Below the pieces are notes generated by a model, which was given only the letters and a program-made list of their open reading frames with translations, was not told where the DNA came from and made no database searches. Of a DNA stretch of 64,000 nt, positions 16,712-24,212 are shown piece after piece; position 1 is the first letter of the stretch, and each line of letters begins with the position of its first letter. A program made the translations under genes and the position numbers. Source of the stretch: an uncultured archaeon (GTDB taxonomy: Archaea; Thermoplasmatota; Thermoplasmata; Thermoplasmatales; Thermoplasmataceae); the NCBI GenBank assembly GCA_000965745.1, contig CP009479.1:444457-508456 (forward strand), in the 5' to 3' direction.

Positions 16712-17038
16712 AAAATCACCAGAGCTTTAAACATAATTATTATATTAAAATTTTACTCTAAGGGAGTTTTGTGTTAAATATGGCTATATTAAGAATTAGT
16801 GCGTGTTTTTGCTGTATTATGGTCATTTTTGTGCATTAATGTTGATTTTTTAGCTGTAAAGGGGCAGATGCACCAATAGCCTGTTTCATTAAATTAGCCG
16901 GATATGATATATAAACACTTTTTGCGGTATTGTTACCTTAAACATCGCTACTGCATACCGTTTCACAGGGATGCCTCCTCATTTCCTCATTTTCCGGCCT
17001 ACAGGTTAAACTTTAGTTGTATAGTTCACTGATAAAAC
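16712..17038 (+). other. Divergent intergenic region, 327 bases
   Basis: It holds the promoters of two divergent operons and no gene. Minus-strand TTTTAATATAATAA at about 16738-16755 is a likely box A for the sugar importer. On the plus strand TGTATAGTTC near 17018-17027 lies about 17-20 bases before the GTG at 17039, and a stronger GATATATAAAC lies near 16905-16916. No convincing operator palindrome was found. Confidence 0.5.
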
Positions 17039-17503
17039 GTGCGCAGTTATCTCAGGATTTTCAGAACGGGCTCGTTTGATTTTGATGAGCTCTACGCCTT
17101 CATGGAGAAAGTCCATGAATACGGGAAGATGCATTTCCTGATTTCAGACGGCATAATGCTTGATCTGCCGCAGACATTTCCTGAAGGCTCCGGCCTGGAC
17201 ATCAGGATTCAGCGAATACTTACGTCATACCAGCTGCAGAGAATACTGCTTGAATCGGATAACAGCCCCCACTTCATTGCCGTTGTTTCCGGGGTGATAT
17301 CCTCGTGGGCAATGGAATCAGTTGAGAGTTTCTACGAGATAATGAAGATAAAATCGTACTACCACAGGTGCCCCATATCCATGAACATAGTTGGGAAGGG
17401 AGGAGTGTACGAGAACTACCTCGGAAAGAGGGTACTTGAGCCACCGGAAAGAAGGGTGGTCGAAGGAGGTCTATACCAATGGGAAGAACAACACCCACAG
17501 TAA
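17039..17503 (+). CDS. Uncharacterised protein, first gene of the PolB2-like operon
   Basis: I do not recognise this 154-residue protein. It is mixed alpha/beta, soluble, with no signal peptide or transmembrane segment. The middle (SGLDIRIQRILTSYQLQRILLES, then SPHFIAVVSGVISSWAMESVESFYEIM) looks helical, and the C-terminus is Glu-rich and acidic. It begins with GTG, and its end overlaps the next gene by 25 bases, so the two are probably translated together. Its place ahead of a divergent family B polymerase suggests an accessory replication or lesion-tolerance factor, but that is inference from position only. Confidence 0.7.
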   Translation: MRSYLRIFRTGSFDFDELYAFMEKVHEYGKMHFLISDGIMLDLPQTFPEGSGLDIRIQRILTSYQLQRILLESDNSPHFIAVVSGVISSWAMESVESFYEIMKIKSYYHRCPISMNIVGKGGVYENYLGKRVLEPPERRVVEGGLYQWEEQHPQ

Positions 17504-17715
17504 GGCAGAAGATGGAGATCATAGCACAGAAATACGGAAGGATGAGATCGATCATGAGGGCGGAGGATGTTGAGATATTCGACAGAATTATGCTCATGGG
17601 CAGAAAACATTCGCCCGAGATATCAATGGCAGGCATTGATCCTGAGACGGGGTTCCTTATGTCCGTGATTCTTGAAATGATGAAGCTTTTTCGGCAGGGC
17701 GAAGAAGAGGAGTGA
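17479..17715 (+). CDS. Small uncharacterised helical protein in the PolB2-like operon
   Basis: This 78-residue protein has no recognised family. It appears all-helical and amphipathic, with a basic N-terminal half (VRQKMEIIAQKYGRMRSIMR) and an acidic Glu-rich end. A strong GGAGGT ribosome-binding site 8 bases before the ATG at 17479 supports the start despite the 25-base overlap with the preceding gene. Seven bases separate it from the polymerase gene. It could be a small partner of the polymerase; nothing in the sequence proves this. Confidence 0.7.
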   Translation: MGRTTPTVRQKMEIIAQKYGRMRSIMRAEDVEIFDRIMLMGRKHSPEISMAGIDPETGFLMSVILEMMKLFRQGEEEE

Positions 17716-17722
17716 GGATCCT

Positions 17723-19744
17723 GTGGACCCGATCATCAATGGAACTGGGGATGACAGGATTTCGCTGTGGTACCTCAGAAACGGGAAGATAATAAAGAGA
17801 AGGTACTGCAACAGGACCTGGGTATTCGTCTCCGGCGATCCCTTTGATCTTGATTTTCTCGCCAGGCAGCTTGATGTTTCCGATTTTGGGTACAACTGGT
17901 CGTCCAGAAGCGATGTTTATGGCAGCATGGACGGCATAGAGATCGCCGTAAACCCGTCACGGACGAAAGATCTTATCAGATCCGTCGAACGTATTGGGCT
18001 CAACAGGAAGTTCAGGGTTTTCAACGGCGACCTTGATCCTGTTATGCGGTTCATGACCGAGAATGGTCTGGAATTTTTCCATCTTGATTCCCCCTATGAC
18101 CATGACCCTCCTGTGGAAAGCCTTCTGGTTGGCGGGAAGGTGAGGGGACGCGATATAGCGGGAGTAACCATGGACGGGGAATCATACCTGCCGGAGAGGA
18201 TGGTCCTCATGGATCTTGAAGAGAGAATCAGTGATAGCCCGATGATCATTTATGACAACAGCTACGAGGCTTTCAAGCTCATTTTGTACAAAATGAGAGA
18301 TCTGGGTCTGAAAATACCCCGGGTGCGGACACGTACTGGATCAACGTACCAGTCATACGGGCAGATGCATTACAAAAGCCCTACAGTGCATCTATCAGGA
18401 AAAATATGCATTCCGTCCGATTCGTTCATTTACGCAGAAGCGGGCCTCCCTGGAATTTATGAGATCTCCAGAACCTCTTCCCTCCCTCCTGCAACAGCAG
18501 CGATGGTGACTCCTGGAACAGCTGTATCGACAATGGAAGAGACTGTTGCAGTAAAAAATGGAGTGCTCGTACCGCTTTACAAGGACGATCATGAGCTGGA
18601 GAAGAGCGTTGAAGAGCTGTCACTTACAGACAGAGGGGGAATCGCCCTTCAGCCGGAGCCCGGCCTTTACGAGGATGTGTATGAGATCGATTTTTCTTCC
18701 ATGTACCCAAGCATAATAGTGCGCTACAATCTTTCCCCGGAAACCATAGGAAAAACCCATGGTTATGTAGTTCCAGATACGCCCTACAGGGTCAATACTG
18801 AAAAAACAGGCTTTCTTTCACAGGCCCTGGGAAATCTTCTCGAGAAGAGGCTTTTCTACAAGTCAATAAAGTGGGAGGATGAAGTTTACAGAAGCAGGGA
18901 TACTTCCCTGAAGTGGATGCTGCTGACATCCTTCGGATATACAGGCTACAAGAATGCAAAATTCGGCAAGATAGAGGCCCATGAGAGCATAACGTCCATC
19001 GGCAGGTCTGTTCTGTCAAAGGCCATGAAGCTGGCGGAAAGCATGGGCTTCAGCGTGATACATGGAATTGTGGACTCCCTCTGGATCAAGGGGGATGGTG
19101 ATGTTGAGGAACTCATGAGGCGCATAAAGCAGGATACGAAGATAGACATAGTCCTTGACGGGCATTACAGGTGGATTGTATTCCTGCCAGCTAGATCCGG
19201 CCTCGGATCGCTCAACAGGTACATAGGCATGAGGATGGATGGGGCGTACAAGATAAGGGGCATTGAGCTGAGAAGAAAGGATGTGCCTGAGATCTCAAGA
19301 AAATTCCAGCTTGAGGCCCTGAAGATCTTTGAAGGCTGCGAGAGTGTTTCTGACATTGGGAGCAAGTATTTGGAACTGCAGAGCCTTGAAAACAGGTACC
19401 TGAAGACTATGCATGAATTCCCCAGAGAATATTTTTGCATTAACATGAAGATAACCAGGAGGCCGGAGGACTACAAAGTGAGGAATATGCAGAAGATTGC
19501 ACTGGAAGACCTTCGCAGGCAGGGCATAGAGGTGAGCCCTGGAGAGCGCATACCCATGGTCGTAACTGACAGGAAGCGTGGAATCATCGATATGGAGGGC
19601 AATTATGAGGGCATTGATGCGGATTTTTACAGGCATCATCTGTACCGGGCATTCGAATGCTTTGACTTCCTCGTGTCCCGGGGAATGTCGGAAAGAAAGA
19701 ACAGGGTGAGAAAACTCACAGACCCATTATTCCAGTCCGCATGA
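17723..19744 (+). CDS. Divergent family B DNA polymerase (PolB2-like)
   Basis: The 673-residue protein contains the family B palm. Motif A is EIDFSSMYPSII with its catalytic Asp at residue 323. Motif B is degenerate (KWMLLTSFGYTGYK from Lys397; the usual NS before YG is TS, and Tyr is Phe). Motif C, normally YGDTDS, reads HGIVDS at 447-452, so the first Asp is Ile and only Asp451, the metal-binding one in the family, remains. An ExoII-like stretch IIYDNSYEAFK lacks the Asp of FD, so proofreading is probably absent. These changes and the short length fit PolB2, a group once predicted inactive but with lesion-tolerance activity reported for Sulfolobus Dpo2. The start is GTG with GAGGAT upstream, 7 bases after the small gene. 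Confidence 0.85.
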   Translation: MDPIINGTGDDRISLWYLRNGKIIKRRYCNRTWVFVSGDPFDLDFLARQLDVSDFGYNWSSRSDVYGSMDGIEIAVNPSRTKDLIRSVERIGLNRKFRVFNGDLDPVMRFMTENGLEFFHLDSPYDHDPPVESLLVGGKVRGRDIAGVTMDGESYLPERMVLMDLEERISDSPMIIYDNSYEAFKLILYKMRDLGLKIPRVRTRTGSTYQSYGQMHYKSPTVHLSGKICIPSDSFIYAEAGLPGIYEISRTSSLPPATAAMVTPGTAVSTMEETVAVKNGVLVPLYKDDHELEKSVEELSLTDRGGIALQPEPGLYEDVYEIDFSSMYPSIIVRYNLSPETIGKTHGYVVPDTPYRVNTEKTGFLSQALGNLLEKRLFYKSIKWEDEVYRSRDTSLKWMLLTSFGYTGYKNAKFGKIEAHESITSIGRSVLSKAMKLAESMGFSVIHGIVDSLWIKGDGDVEELMRRIKQDTKIDIVLDGHYRWIVFLPARSGLGSLNRYIGMRMDGAYKIRGIELRRKDVPEISRKFQLEALKIFEGCESVSDIGSKYLELQSLENRYLKTMHEFPREYFCINMKITRRPEDYKVRNMQKIALEDLRRQGIEVSPGERIPMVVTDRKRGIIDMEGNYEGIDADFYRHHLYRAFECFDFLVSRGMSERKNRVRKLTDPLFQSA

Positions 19745-19753
19745 GTGCCGGAG

Positions 19754-20908
19754 CTAGGCGATCTGGCCGAGCATAAGCTCTATCTTCTCACTCAATACAG
19801 CCACGGGGACGTCGCTAATGCTGATCACCTTCCGTACGCCTTTCTTGTCTCCACCGCTCACCGTTTTGCTGTCCAGGAATCCTACCACTTCAAGTTTCTT
19901 GAGTATCCTGTAAATGTCCTTGCGGTCCATCCCTTCCATGCTGTACTGCTCGGCGAACGCAGGGGCGTTTTCAACAAGGCAGTCGAGCTGGGTCTCCGTG
20001 GCATTCTTAAGGCAGCTGCATACCGTGAGGAGAAGAACAAGTTCTTCCTTTTCAAGTTCGCCAAGCTTGCTTTCCGTTACATACGGGTTTATGAGCGATT
20101 TTGCAGCCCTTATGTCTTCCCCCTCTATGGTATCAGAGGATCTGTAGTCTGCAATGTGTGATGCCTTCTGCAGAAGTTCAATCGCAACACGTGCACTTCC
20201 GAAGTGTTCTGCAATTTCAGAAATATAGTCGAGTATTGAAGGCGTGTAGGCCGAATCTTCCAGTGACACCTTGCACCTGTCATCTATAATCCCGTACAAT
20301 TCATCACGCGTGTATTTGCTGAACTCAAGGGCAGAGAATACGCCGAGGGATTTTCTGTCCCTTTCCGTAAAATAGATAGTGGGGTTGTCAATAGATACAA
20401 GTATGGTTGACATCCCTGTCTCGTAGATCTCGTTGGACCTGAAAAGGTTGTAGAATCCGTCAGGGTCCCTTCTTGCTATGTTTGAGGCCTCATCAATAAC
20501 AAGGACAAGCGATGTACCCCTCTTCTTCATTATTGTGTTAATGGCCCCGAAAATCTGGTTATAAGACGCAGCACGGCTCGGAAAGACCTTCCCCAGCTTG
20601 TTTATGACATCGCTGAGAAGAGTGCGGATATTGCCGAAGGACAGTGCGTTTTCATAAATTATGGTGGGAGATTTTTCTTCCCTCAGCAGAAGCTTGATTG
20701 TCGCTGTTTTTCCGGTGCCTGAGGCACCATATATCACAAGGTTTGGGAAAATACCATTTCTCACCGGCTGGAGTACGATCTCCCTTATCTTCTTGAGCTG
20801 CTGCTCCCTGAACCTGAGCCGTTCCGGGACATAAGCGAAATCTAGCGGGTCTGGATTCTTAATTATCAACTTGCCTGTGATATTGTTTCTAGTATATTTA
20901 GGTACCAC
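19754..20908 (-). CDS. Orc1/Cdc6-type AAA+ ATPase
   Basis: Archaeal Orc1/Cdc6 proteins bind origins and load the replicative helicase; some paralogues act as DNA-damage regulators. Walker A is YGASGTGKTAT (about residues 60-70), Walker B is LVLVIDEAS (Asp139-Glu140), sensor 1 lies in TILVSIDNPT, and sensor 2 is the ARVAIELLQKA helix. The last 100 residues form the winged-helix domain (KDIYRILKKLEVVGFLDSKT). The start is GTG, only 2 bases after the DsrE-like gene, so they form an operon. It converges on the PolB2-like gene with 9 bases between them. Whether it is the main initiator or a paralogue cannot be told from this window, and no origin repeats were found beside it. Confidence 0.93.
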   Translation of the reverse strand: MVPKYTRNNITGKLIIKNPDPLDFAYVPERLRFREQQLKKIREIVLQPVRNGIFPNLVIYGASGTGKTATIKLLLREEKSPTIIYENALSFGNIRTLLSDVINKLGKVFPSRAASYNQIFGAINTIMKKRGTSLVLVIDEASNIARRDPDGFYNLFRSNEIYETGMSTILVSIDNPTIYFTERDRKSLGVFSALEFSKYTRDELYGIIDDRCKVSLEDSAYTPSILDYISEIAEHFGSARVAIELLQKASHIADYRSSDTIEGEDIRAAKSLINPYVTESKLGELEKEELVLLLTVCSCLKNATETQLDCLVENAPAFAEQYSMEGMDRKDIYRILKKLEVVGFLDSKTVSGGDKKGVRKVISISDVPVAVLSEKIELMLGQIA

Positions 20909-20910
20909 GA

Positions 20911-21255
20911 TCAGAAGGACACAACACTATATCCGCTGTTGATGAACCCAGGAATGGTGTCGCTCACGTTCTCAAGCTTTACTCCCAATTTTGCGATTCC
21001 CTCCGACAGGTCGTTTGCGGCGGCATACCCGTTGCATGCGATAGATGTAACATTATGCTCAACAAGCTTGCTGTAAAGGTCCCTGACTTCCTGGTCATCA
21101 CCTGCAATGGCTTTCTCGCTTGGCCCGAAGAAAACTACTTTCACGTCTTCGAGATTATTCTTCCTGGCGGAATTCATTGCAAATCTCATGCCCACGAGCA
21201 GTTTGTCCCTGTTTTCAAGCCCAGATGTTATAAGTACAAGCATTTTTCCAGTCAT
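20911..21255 (-). CDS. DsrE/DsrF-like small protein
   Basis: This 114-residue alpha/beta protein has the DsrE-fold pattern: first strand MLVLITSGLENRDKLLVGMRFAMNSAR, second DVKVVFFGPSEKAI, and a late VTSIACNGYAA carrying the single Cys at the position used in sulfur-relay DsrE proteins. It may handle sulfane sulfur or act as a small regulatory subunit; the activity is not established. A paralogue at 46249-46590 shares the D-V-K-V-x-x-x-GPSEK segment and the Gly-Tyr near the C-terminus. It is co-transcribed with the Orc1 gene. A TATA-like AGAATTATT about 26 bases upstream suggests a leaderless message. Confidence 0.75.
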   Translation of the reverse strand: MTGKMLVLITSGLENRDKLLVGMRFAMNSARKNNLEDVKVVFFGPSEKAIAGDDQEVRDLYSKLVEHNVTSIACNGYAAANDLSEGIAKLGVKLENVSDTIPGFINSGYSVVSF

Positions 21256-22314: not shown

Positions 22315-23994
22315 CTATGCCCTAGCGAGTGCGGCCTGAGATGTTATCTCTTTCTTGTTTTCGAGGCCGTATTCCTTGACTTTGTCTACATCGACCCCGC
22401 GCTTCCTCGCGATTTTCTCTACAGTTCTAAGCATTAATCCCCCACCAAAGGAGATAATGCCTCCTGTTCCGAGCTTCACAACCATGTTGCCTCTCGCGTC
22501 CCTGTAACCGTTTCTCTTTGCCATCTTTGCCAGATGCCTGTAAGACGCGTAGTATACCGCGAGCATGCTCTCGGTGAGCATTTCCCTGTTTAGCTCTCTC
22601 GACTTGATCCTTCCGAGTGGGACGTTAAGGAGAGGAGTTGCAGTGAATTCGAACGCCCTGCCTTCGACATAAGAGTTGCTCAACCGGTTTATCATTGCTA
22701 CTGTGTCCCAGTTGTCCTCGTCAGTCTCTCCTGCCTGCCCAACCTGCAGAGTGAAAGCAGGCCTCCAGTAATTCTTGGTCTCGACTGCAACACCCTGCCA
22801 CACAATATCCTGCCATGAGCCGTCCGGCCCAATCTTGAGAGGAAGTGTCTTGTTGGGCATGTGCTGTTTCGCAAGAGAATCGCTGCCTGTTTCAATTCCG
22901 GTCTGGACTCCGATCCAGTTGTCCGGGCCACCTTTGAGAACCTTCGTCAGGTGCTCCATCATCTCTGGATAGCCTGCTGGTATGGAGATTCTCCCGTGTG
23001 TGGGGTTTGATGTTTTCACACCCTTTATGCCCATGACAGTCGAGAAGAGTTCTGAAAGGGCGTCCTCGTTTGGCGTGAACATGTTTCCATGCTTGTACCC
23101 CCATATTTCATCAGAGTGCAGCCACGCGTTGGTCTGTCCTGCCTTGAGGTTTATTTCAACCTCCTTGACTATGTTCTCTATGGGAACGTACCTGAGCGGC
23201 CTCAGGGTTACCTCACAAAAATCGCAGCCTACACCGCAACCCCTCATAACCTCAGTCATCCCTTTCATTGCCGGGTTGACGATTGGTGGCATTTCCTCAA
23301 GTTTTGGATAAGCGGCGAATGATACCCCTCTTGCGAGGAATTTCTCGTCTTTCTGCACTATTTTTCTGAATTTATCGTCGTAGGTCATGTAGCCGCTGTG
23401 GAAAAGCGACGGATCAATGCTGCCACTGACAATCTGGTCGAAAAGTATCGGGGCGATATCATCGGCTTCTCCCTGAAAAACGTAATCGATATTGTACTTG
23501 TCAATGGCGTCCCTCATTAATGTGAACTCCCAGACACCGGGTCCACCAACAACCAGTTTAGCCTTTTTCCCCCGCCTGACACTGTTTATCTTCTCCATCA
23601 GTAAGTCCCATTCTCTCCATACCCATGCATATAGCTCTCCGCCGAATAATGCATAGTAGGACATTGTTACTGGCCCAAGGCCAAGAGGGTCCATTGTGGA
23701 CACAGCAATTATCTCGGTATCGTCTGTTATGTGCTGTGCCAGGTACTCCTCCTGGATTACTGCAACGTCCTTTCTTTCAAACCTTGTCAGAAGAGAGGCC
23801 TCGAGCTTTCTTATGGAGTACGGCGCCAGGTCTACTCTTCCATCTGGCGCAGTTGGGGGTGCGGGACCTTTAAGAAAACGGTAGATGGGACCGGGTATCG
23901 CTCTTGACGGTGCGCAGGGCAAAAAGTCCAGTAATGGAAAATCTCTGTATTGGTATCCTAGAGTCGAGTCTGAAATCAATACATATTTTGTCAT
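22315..23994 (-). CDS. B12-binding-type radical SAM protein
   Basis: The N-terminal 200 residues look like a cobalamin-binding Rossmann domain (IIAVSTMDPLGLGPVTM, KLVVGGPGVWEF, VFQGEADDIAPILFD). The radical SAM domain has the CxxxCxxC cluster motif in RGCGVGCDFCEV, followed by WLHSDEIW. These enzymes use SAM and B12 for methylation or C-C bond chemistry. In thermoacidophilic archaea one such family (Grs) forms the cyclopentane rings of GDGT lipids, and this gene is a reasonable candidate on lineage and architecture only. The start at 23994 (MTKYVLISDSTLG) fits the domain; an in-frame ATG at 24036 would add 14 residues. Confidence 0.8.
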   Translation of the reverse strand: MTKYVLISDSTLGYQYRDFPLLDFLPCAPSRAIPGPIYRFLKGPAPPTAPDGRVDLAPYSIRKLEASLLTRFERKDVAVIQEEYLAQHITDDTEIIAVSTMDPLGLGPVTMSYYALFGGELYAWVWREWDLLMEKINSVRRGKKAKLVVGGPGVWEFTLMRDAIDKYNIDYVFQGEADDIAPILFDQIVSGSIDPSLFHSGYMTYDDKFRKIVQKDEKFLARGVSFAAYPKLEEMPPIVNPAMKGMTEVMRGCGVGCDFCEVTLRPLRYVPIENIVKEVEINLKAGQTNAWLHSDEIWGYKHGNMFTPNEDALSELFSTVMGIKGVKTSNPTHGRISIPAGYPEMMEHLTKVLKGGPDNWIGVQTGIETGSDSLAKQHMPNKTLPLKIGPDGSWQDIVWQGVAVETKNYWRPAFTLQVGQAGETDEDNWDTVAMINRLSNSYVEGRAFEFTATPLLNVPLGRIKSRELNREMLTESMLAVYYASYRHLAKMAKRNGYRDARGNMVVKLGTGGIISFGGGLMLRTVEKIARKRGVDVDKVKEYGLENKKEITSQAALARA

Positions 23995-24212
23995 AATACT
24001 CAGTCCGGTAGGATTAGTTAGAAACTTAACCTTCATAAAGATTTTGTTCGGGAGGCATATGAAATGTTCTTTGATACAAAGCTCCAGAGTCGATTCCAGT
24101 TTTCTTGCTCCAGAGATAAATACTCATGCTTTTCAATATGCCATGAGTTTACAGCACAATGAAAATAACTTCTATCCGGGAAAAGTTAACCATATACCCT
24201 GTCATAAAGACT

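Follow-up and report, generated by a model that had tools for sequence, protein, structure and literature searches.

A tandem box upstream of the PolB2 mutasome operon in Thermoplasmatales and a candidate Orc2-controlled damage regulon

Analysis of a 64,000-nucleotide stretch of archaeal DNA, in the following called the window, identified a conserved tandem box just upstream of the TATA box of an operon encoding the polymerase PolB2, and the same box recurred before genes of the same small protein families elsewhere in the Thermoplasmatales. Judging from the sequence comparisons, we consider it probable that the operon is induced by DNA damage under the control of the Orc1/Cdc6 paralogue encoded beside it, and that the boxed genes make up a candidate Orc2 damage regulon. 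The three-gene operon itself is the already known iRadA–PPB2–PolB2 system, the "mutasome" (PMC11791011, PMC4104785), as the RecA-fold iRadA, the PPB2 protein with its MGRT start and PolB2 all match the published operon. Also the arORC2 neighbour is known: orc1/cdc6 genes are enriched beside archaeal polB2, and the arORC2 gene has been reported at this place in many euryarchaea (PMC11791011, PMC4104785). The promoter box, its spacing, the box-sharing small-protein genes and the match to the Sulfolobus element were, as far as we searched, not described in the literature.

The window belongs to a complete genome of 2.23 Mb (below, the host genome). The host's family, within the Thermoplasmatales, has Ferroplasma, Acidiplasma, Cuniculiplasma and E-plasma among its members. 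The original prediction, made from the letters of the window, had described a three-gene operon ending in a PolB2-like polymerase with an altered motif C and facing an Orc1/Cdc6 gene coupled to a DsrE-like gene, and all five ORFs were found in the predicted places (Table 1). The iRadA and PPB2 ORFs overlap by 25 bases, the convergent PolB2 and Orc genes are separated by nine bases, and the gap from DsrE to Orc is two bases.

Table 1. Genes and promoter elements of the PolB2 locus, with positions in the window.
Feature	Position	Strand	Basis
iRadA gene (154 aa, GTG start)	17039..17503	+	AF2 fold match, position in relatives
PPB2 gene (arCOG07300, 78 aa)	17479..17715	+	MGRTTPTVRQ start
PolB2 gene (Dpo2-type family B polymerase, 673 aa, GTG start)	17723..19744	+	NF004416, alignment
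arORC2-type Orc1/Cdc6 paralogue gene (384 aa), candidate damage-response regulator	19754..20908	-	
DsrE-like gene (114 aa), local insertion upstream of Orc	20911..21255	-	weak Pfam DsrE
Tandem box CTCATTTC-CTCATTTT	16978..16993	+	15/16 match to CTCATTTTCTCATTTT
Likely TATA box TTAAACTTTA	17006..17015	+	-33..-24 of iRadA start codon; sequence

PolB2 was a full-length member of the NCBIfam family NF004416 (643 bits, cut-off 516) and also passed the Pfam DNA_pol_B cut-off. Its motif C reads HGIVDS, with the first catalytic Asp of the DxD substituted. Residues H447, G448, V450, D451 (the second motif C Asp) and S452 were invariant in an alignment of 13 diverse relatives from several families, as was D323 of motif A. 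No conserved exonuclease carboxylates were present in the N-terminal half of the same alignment, in agreement with the degenerate exonuclease that had been predicted. Since no Y-family polymerase was found in the complete host genome, the archaeon probably has no dedicated lesion-bypass polymerase other than the PolB2 complex. Y-family polymerases were absent from 55 of the 61 Thermoplasmatales genomes searched, while Ferroplasma, Acidiplasma and the genome G018 have one. Leptospira phages (KF114878-KF114880, KX656785) encode a PolB2-like polymerase with 36% identity.

The two small genes of the operon received no name from Pfam or NCBIfam and had been called unrecognised in the original prediction, a description that did not hold: the first is recognisable by fold and position as iRadA and the second by its MGRT start as PPB2. 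The AF2 model of iRadA, built from an alignment of 28 sequences, reached a pLDDT of 85, and its best matches among solved structures were RecA-fold proteins (BcsE, RecA, KaiC; probability 1.00, query TM 0.5–0.58). Walker A is absent from iRadA. iRadA is identified as a degenerate RecA-fold partner of PolB2 with a dead ATPase site. At one methanogen locus (L146) the gene equivalent to iRadA matches Pfam Rad51. The MGR[T/S/N] start of PPB2 was invariant in 36 relatives, and a fusion of iRadA and PPB2 into one gene was seen in a single case among the 29 relatives (L054). The window PPB2 also matches phrog_30126 weakly.

The order iRadA–PPB2–PolB2 converging on Orc was found in all 29 PolB2-positive family genomes fetched, with iRadA and PPB2 at the same place in every one of them, so that the conservation of the small genes with PolB2 was supported. 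The convergent order was also seen at named family loci, including those of Ferroplasma and Acidiplasma, where the contig was complete enough; these loci were found by searching genome contigs with an alignment query, a single-protein query having given no match. Of the 37 family genomes, 31 have PolB2 together with this Orc and six have neither (Fisher test, 4e-7). Five of these six are incomplete MAGs (59–85%), and because adjacent genes go missing together with a lost contig only the double absence in G018 (99% complete, six contigs) is firm. G018 lacks PolB2 and Orc but carries a Y-family polymerase.

The DsrE gene, originally counted as part of the module, was rejected as a member of it. 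No DsrE was present beside Orc in any of the 29 family relatives, and compared with these only the window has, in the gap from Orc to the radical-SAM gene, an insertion with DsrE and DUF981; the Pfam DsrE match itself was weak (17.0 bits, cut-off 22.7). The B12-binding radical SAM protein (22315-24036, minus strand) is about 70% identical across the family, and its gene lies directly before Orc in most relatives. Also this gene was rejected as a functional partner of Orc and the adjacency treated as positional, because it sits elsewhere in some relatives and has been kept in G018 and G035, which are without PolB2 and Orc.

The window Orc matched Cdc6_lid (3.5e-16) and reached 157 bits with TIGR02928, under the cut-off of 181 bits, and 24.7 bits with Cdc6_C, slightly below the cut-off of 25.1. 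Walker A (G61, G64, G66-K67-T68) and Walker B (D139-E140) were conserved in at least 95% of 30 aligned rows. Four Orc-like genes were counted in the host genome, including an initiator-type gene at C1:1354179 (403 bits, above the cut-off); the window gene is thus a second paralogue, as had been supposed, and not the sole initiator. With both Walker motifs conserved, this paralogue appears to be equipped for ATP-dependent DNA binding. The other Orc-like genes, at C1:398378 and C1:612028 (L003, L004), look plasmid-type and were set aside as not relevant here; around the one of them that was inspected, ParA and a serine recombinase mark a plasmid-like island.

When the operon promoters were aligned, CTCATTTT-CTCATTTT stood out as a direct repeat that most relatives carry shortly before the TATA box. 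The window copy reads CTCATTTCCTCATTTT and ends 45 nt before the GTG of iRadA. The mean best score of the box over the 29 family loci was 13.5 of 16, compared with 10.3 ± 0.3 (maximum 11.7) for 300 shuffled motifs. A score of at least 13/16 was reached at 18 of the 29 loci, the corresponding number for the shuffled motifs being on average 0.5 and at most 3. At all 27 family sites scoring at least 11/16, an in-frame start was located 44–49 nt past the box. When the promoters are aligned, the box lies at about -62 to -46 and the TATA box at -27 of the start codon; because of this distance, and of the 100% A/T at -27 and -26, the operon transcript is predicted to be leaderless, with its TATA box at about -27.

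Variation between families and genes was also seen. In the sister family f3 there are three repeats, with their end at a similar distance from the start, and family f4 has kept PolB2 with a single Orc and no box. The box was not found upstream of the DsrE, Orc or radical-SAM genes of the window. In a single clade, that of L042, L043, L085 and L086, a box scoring 13/16 precedes the Orc gene by 47 nt.

The exact pattern YTCATTTNYTCATTTT was present at 45 sites in 61 genomes, and its reversed control at one. When one mismatch was allowed, 32 sites were found in 17 Orc2-positive genomes (control 1) and one in six Orc2-negative genomes (control 1). The host genome had five sites scoring at least 15/16, compared with 0.23 expected from shuffles. 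Sites scoring at least 13/16 showed no excess there (61 vs 46.5 ± 10), and weak sites were for this reason dropped. The score scan covered the host genome outside the region 1,642,701-2,040,700, and a search allowing up to two mismatches covered all of it.

Beyond the operon, the box was repeatedly located before genes of small proteins of 60–75 aa, divided into family A (C1:1999147 and C1:204474 in the host genome) and family B (C1:1414807 in the host genome, box at 66 nt). A profile search for family A that took no account of the box yielded matches in 17 genomes; some 14 of the 20 separate loci had a box of at least 13/16, for the most part 45–48 nt before the start. Neither Pfam nor PHROGs gave a family for the boxed small proteins. 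An AbrB-like protein (L215, L272) was boxed at like spacing, and at L218 (G031:C3:3576) an exact box preceded a short leader ORF by 48 nt. Downstream of this leader there are a 5-cytosine methyltransferase and an endonuclease III/MutY-like glycosylase. Genes of family A adjoin, in two genera, a protein with repeated KQ(L/I)xFIKKL motifs (G000:C1:203740-204708; L215 1274-2055), and a version with one repeat (L209) has an exact box of its own.

Also mobile elements carried the box. It was present before the transposase gene of IS605-type TnpB elements (L207 and L211-L214 in G015, L170 in G054), with a distance of 46 nt in L212 and L213, and transposition may thus be damage-induced. A provirus- or plasmid-like island, L219 (G010:C1:129089), has a 58-aa gene with an exact box 46 nt ahead of it and is possibly a mobile element that uses the damage signal of its host. 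No gene with the right spacing was found for the boxes near L216/L217 or for those within genes (L224, L258), which were left out. The 28 scattered exact matches obtained from a huge collection of viral contigs were judged to be chance.

The Orc1-2 protein of Sulfolobus activates damage genes via the motif ANTTTC (PMC9738581). The window box includes ATTTTC, and ANTTTC was literally present in 13 of the 29 family boxes, compared with 6.7% of control genes. In methanogen-type PolB2 operons, ACTTTC or AGTTTC was found at the corresponding place, 54–71 nt before iRadA, at all 14 loci whose start was usable (L135-L137, L140, L142, L144, L146, L147, L150-L153, L155, L156), a count that overstates independence because many of these loci are related; among the controls, genes in the same loci, the proportion was 6%, and three of the 14 loci were looked at after the pattern had been stated. 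The Archaeoglobi, which have PolB2 and a neighbouring Orc, showed neither form of the box (ANTTTC 0/4). A wider interpretation, which we put forward tentatively as possible rather than probable, is that an ANTTTC-type damage box, read by Orc2 and controlling PolB2, is ancient in archaea (Sulfolobales, methanogens, Thermoplasmatota) and was doubled to CTCATTTT-CTCATTTT and joined by small effectors in the Thermoplasmatales.

If the operon is damage-induced under Orc2 control, the iRadA, PPB2 and PolB2 genes would be transcribed as one leaderless operon, whose tandem box (with CTCATTTT twice) stands directly upstream of BRE/TATA, where an activator would aid the recruitment of TFB. Upon DNA damage, the arORC2-type AAA+/winged-helix protein would most likely bind this box and turn the operon on, and PolB2, held by the RecA-like iRadA and a PPB2 trimer, would then extend past lesions. 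The same Orc would also switch on a few other genes, among them those of the new small proteins, in the manner of Orc1-2 in Sulfolobus. The damage-tolerance module suggested originally is favoured by the co-inheritance of its genes and the shared promoter box, with DsrE not included in it.

It is less likely, though conceivable, that the mutasome operon stands as described while another activator, such as a TFB paralogue or an unknown factor, reads the box, and that the Orc acts on replication, for instance by holding back origin firing during the work of the mutasome. Such a role would be in line with the initial proposal of Sulfolobus Orc1-2/Cdc6-2 as a replication repressor (PMC6934391), with the role in origin regulation suggested by Makarova 2014 (PMC4104785), and with the Orc operon of the window having no box. 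However, the box, PolB2 and the second Orc vanish together, family f4 has PolB2 with neither the second Orc nor the box, and one clade has a box before the Orc gene itself.

Archaeal promoters can have T-rich upstream elements, and the box could be a constitutive element of this kind, belonging to a small gene set and unrelated to DNA damage. We find this improbable, as the box is rare in the host genome, the counterpart dpo2 operon of Sulfolobus is induced about 20-fold by NQO (PMC10470591), and the box is nearly co-located with the Sulfolobus UV box, defined by experiment at -44 to -39, upstream of the BRE (PMC5817253). Even with the first catalytic Asp replaced and the exonuclease motifs lost, PolB2 is very unlikely to be an inactive structural relic with a regulatory role only, since the S. 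islandicus PolB2 has likewise lost the first Asp (IID), yet is active and needed for mutagenesis (PMC11791011), and here both motif A and D451 of motif C are invariant.

A regulated damage response similar to SOS is documented in Sulfolobales, and none was found for Euryarchaeota or Thermoplasmatota in the literature searched. With a box named, a regulator proposed and a few targets listed, the question can be put to a direct test in Ferroplasma, Cuniculiplasma or methanogens. Control of the operon by Orc2, if true, would explain how mutagenesis is controlled in archaea without Y-family polymerases, and damage might induce the boxed small protein families as effectors, for example to put a brake on the cell cycle. 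If also the ancient origin of the Orc2/ANTTTC system were true, archaea would have in it their counterpart of LexA/SOS, in which an origin-recognition protein has become the regulator.

Compared with the published PolB2 mutasome operon (Makarova 2014, Timinskas 2025), the window has the same gene content and order, the same MGRT start of PPB2 and the same arORC2 neighbour, and shares the loss of the first motif C Asp and the RecA-fold iRadA without Walker A. It differs in that the Orc gene is convergent and not inside the operon, and it adds the conserved promoter box and the box-sharing gene set, in a genome without a Y-family polymerase. The Orc1-2 regulon of Sulfolobus resembles the window in having an AAA+/winged-helix Orc paralogue distinct from the initiator; in the window this paralogue is the candidate regulator. 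Also the DDRE/UV box of Sulfolobus has the PolB2 operon as its target and is a T-rich box right upstream of BRE/TATA, and the likeness extends to the ATTTTC inside the window box and the ACTTTC of the methanogens. The Thermoplasmatales box is, in contrast, a tandem 16-bp box located somewhat further upstream, its regulator is a candidate only, and its companions are small proteins, whereas those in Sulfolobus are ups, ced and tfb3. Without any evolutionary relation being claimed, the bacterial SOS response (LexA box, ImuABC or Pol V) has in common with the present case a damage-type box controlling an error-prone polymerase complex, a RecA-like subunit, small proteins and mobile-element genes, while the archaeal case is without LexA and has as its candidate an Orc paralogue acting as an activator.
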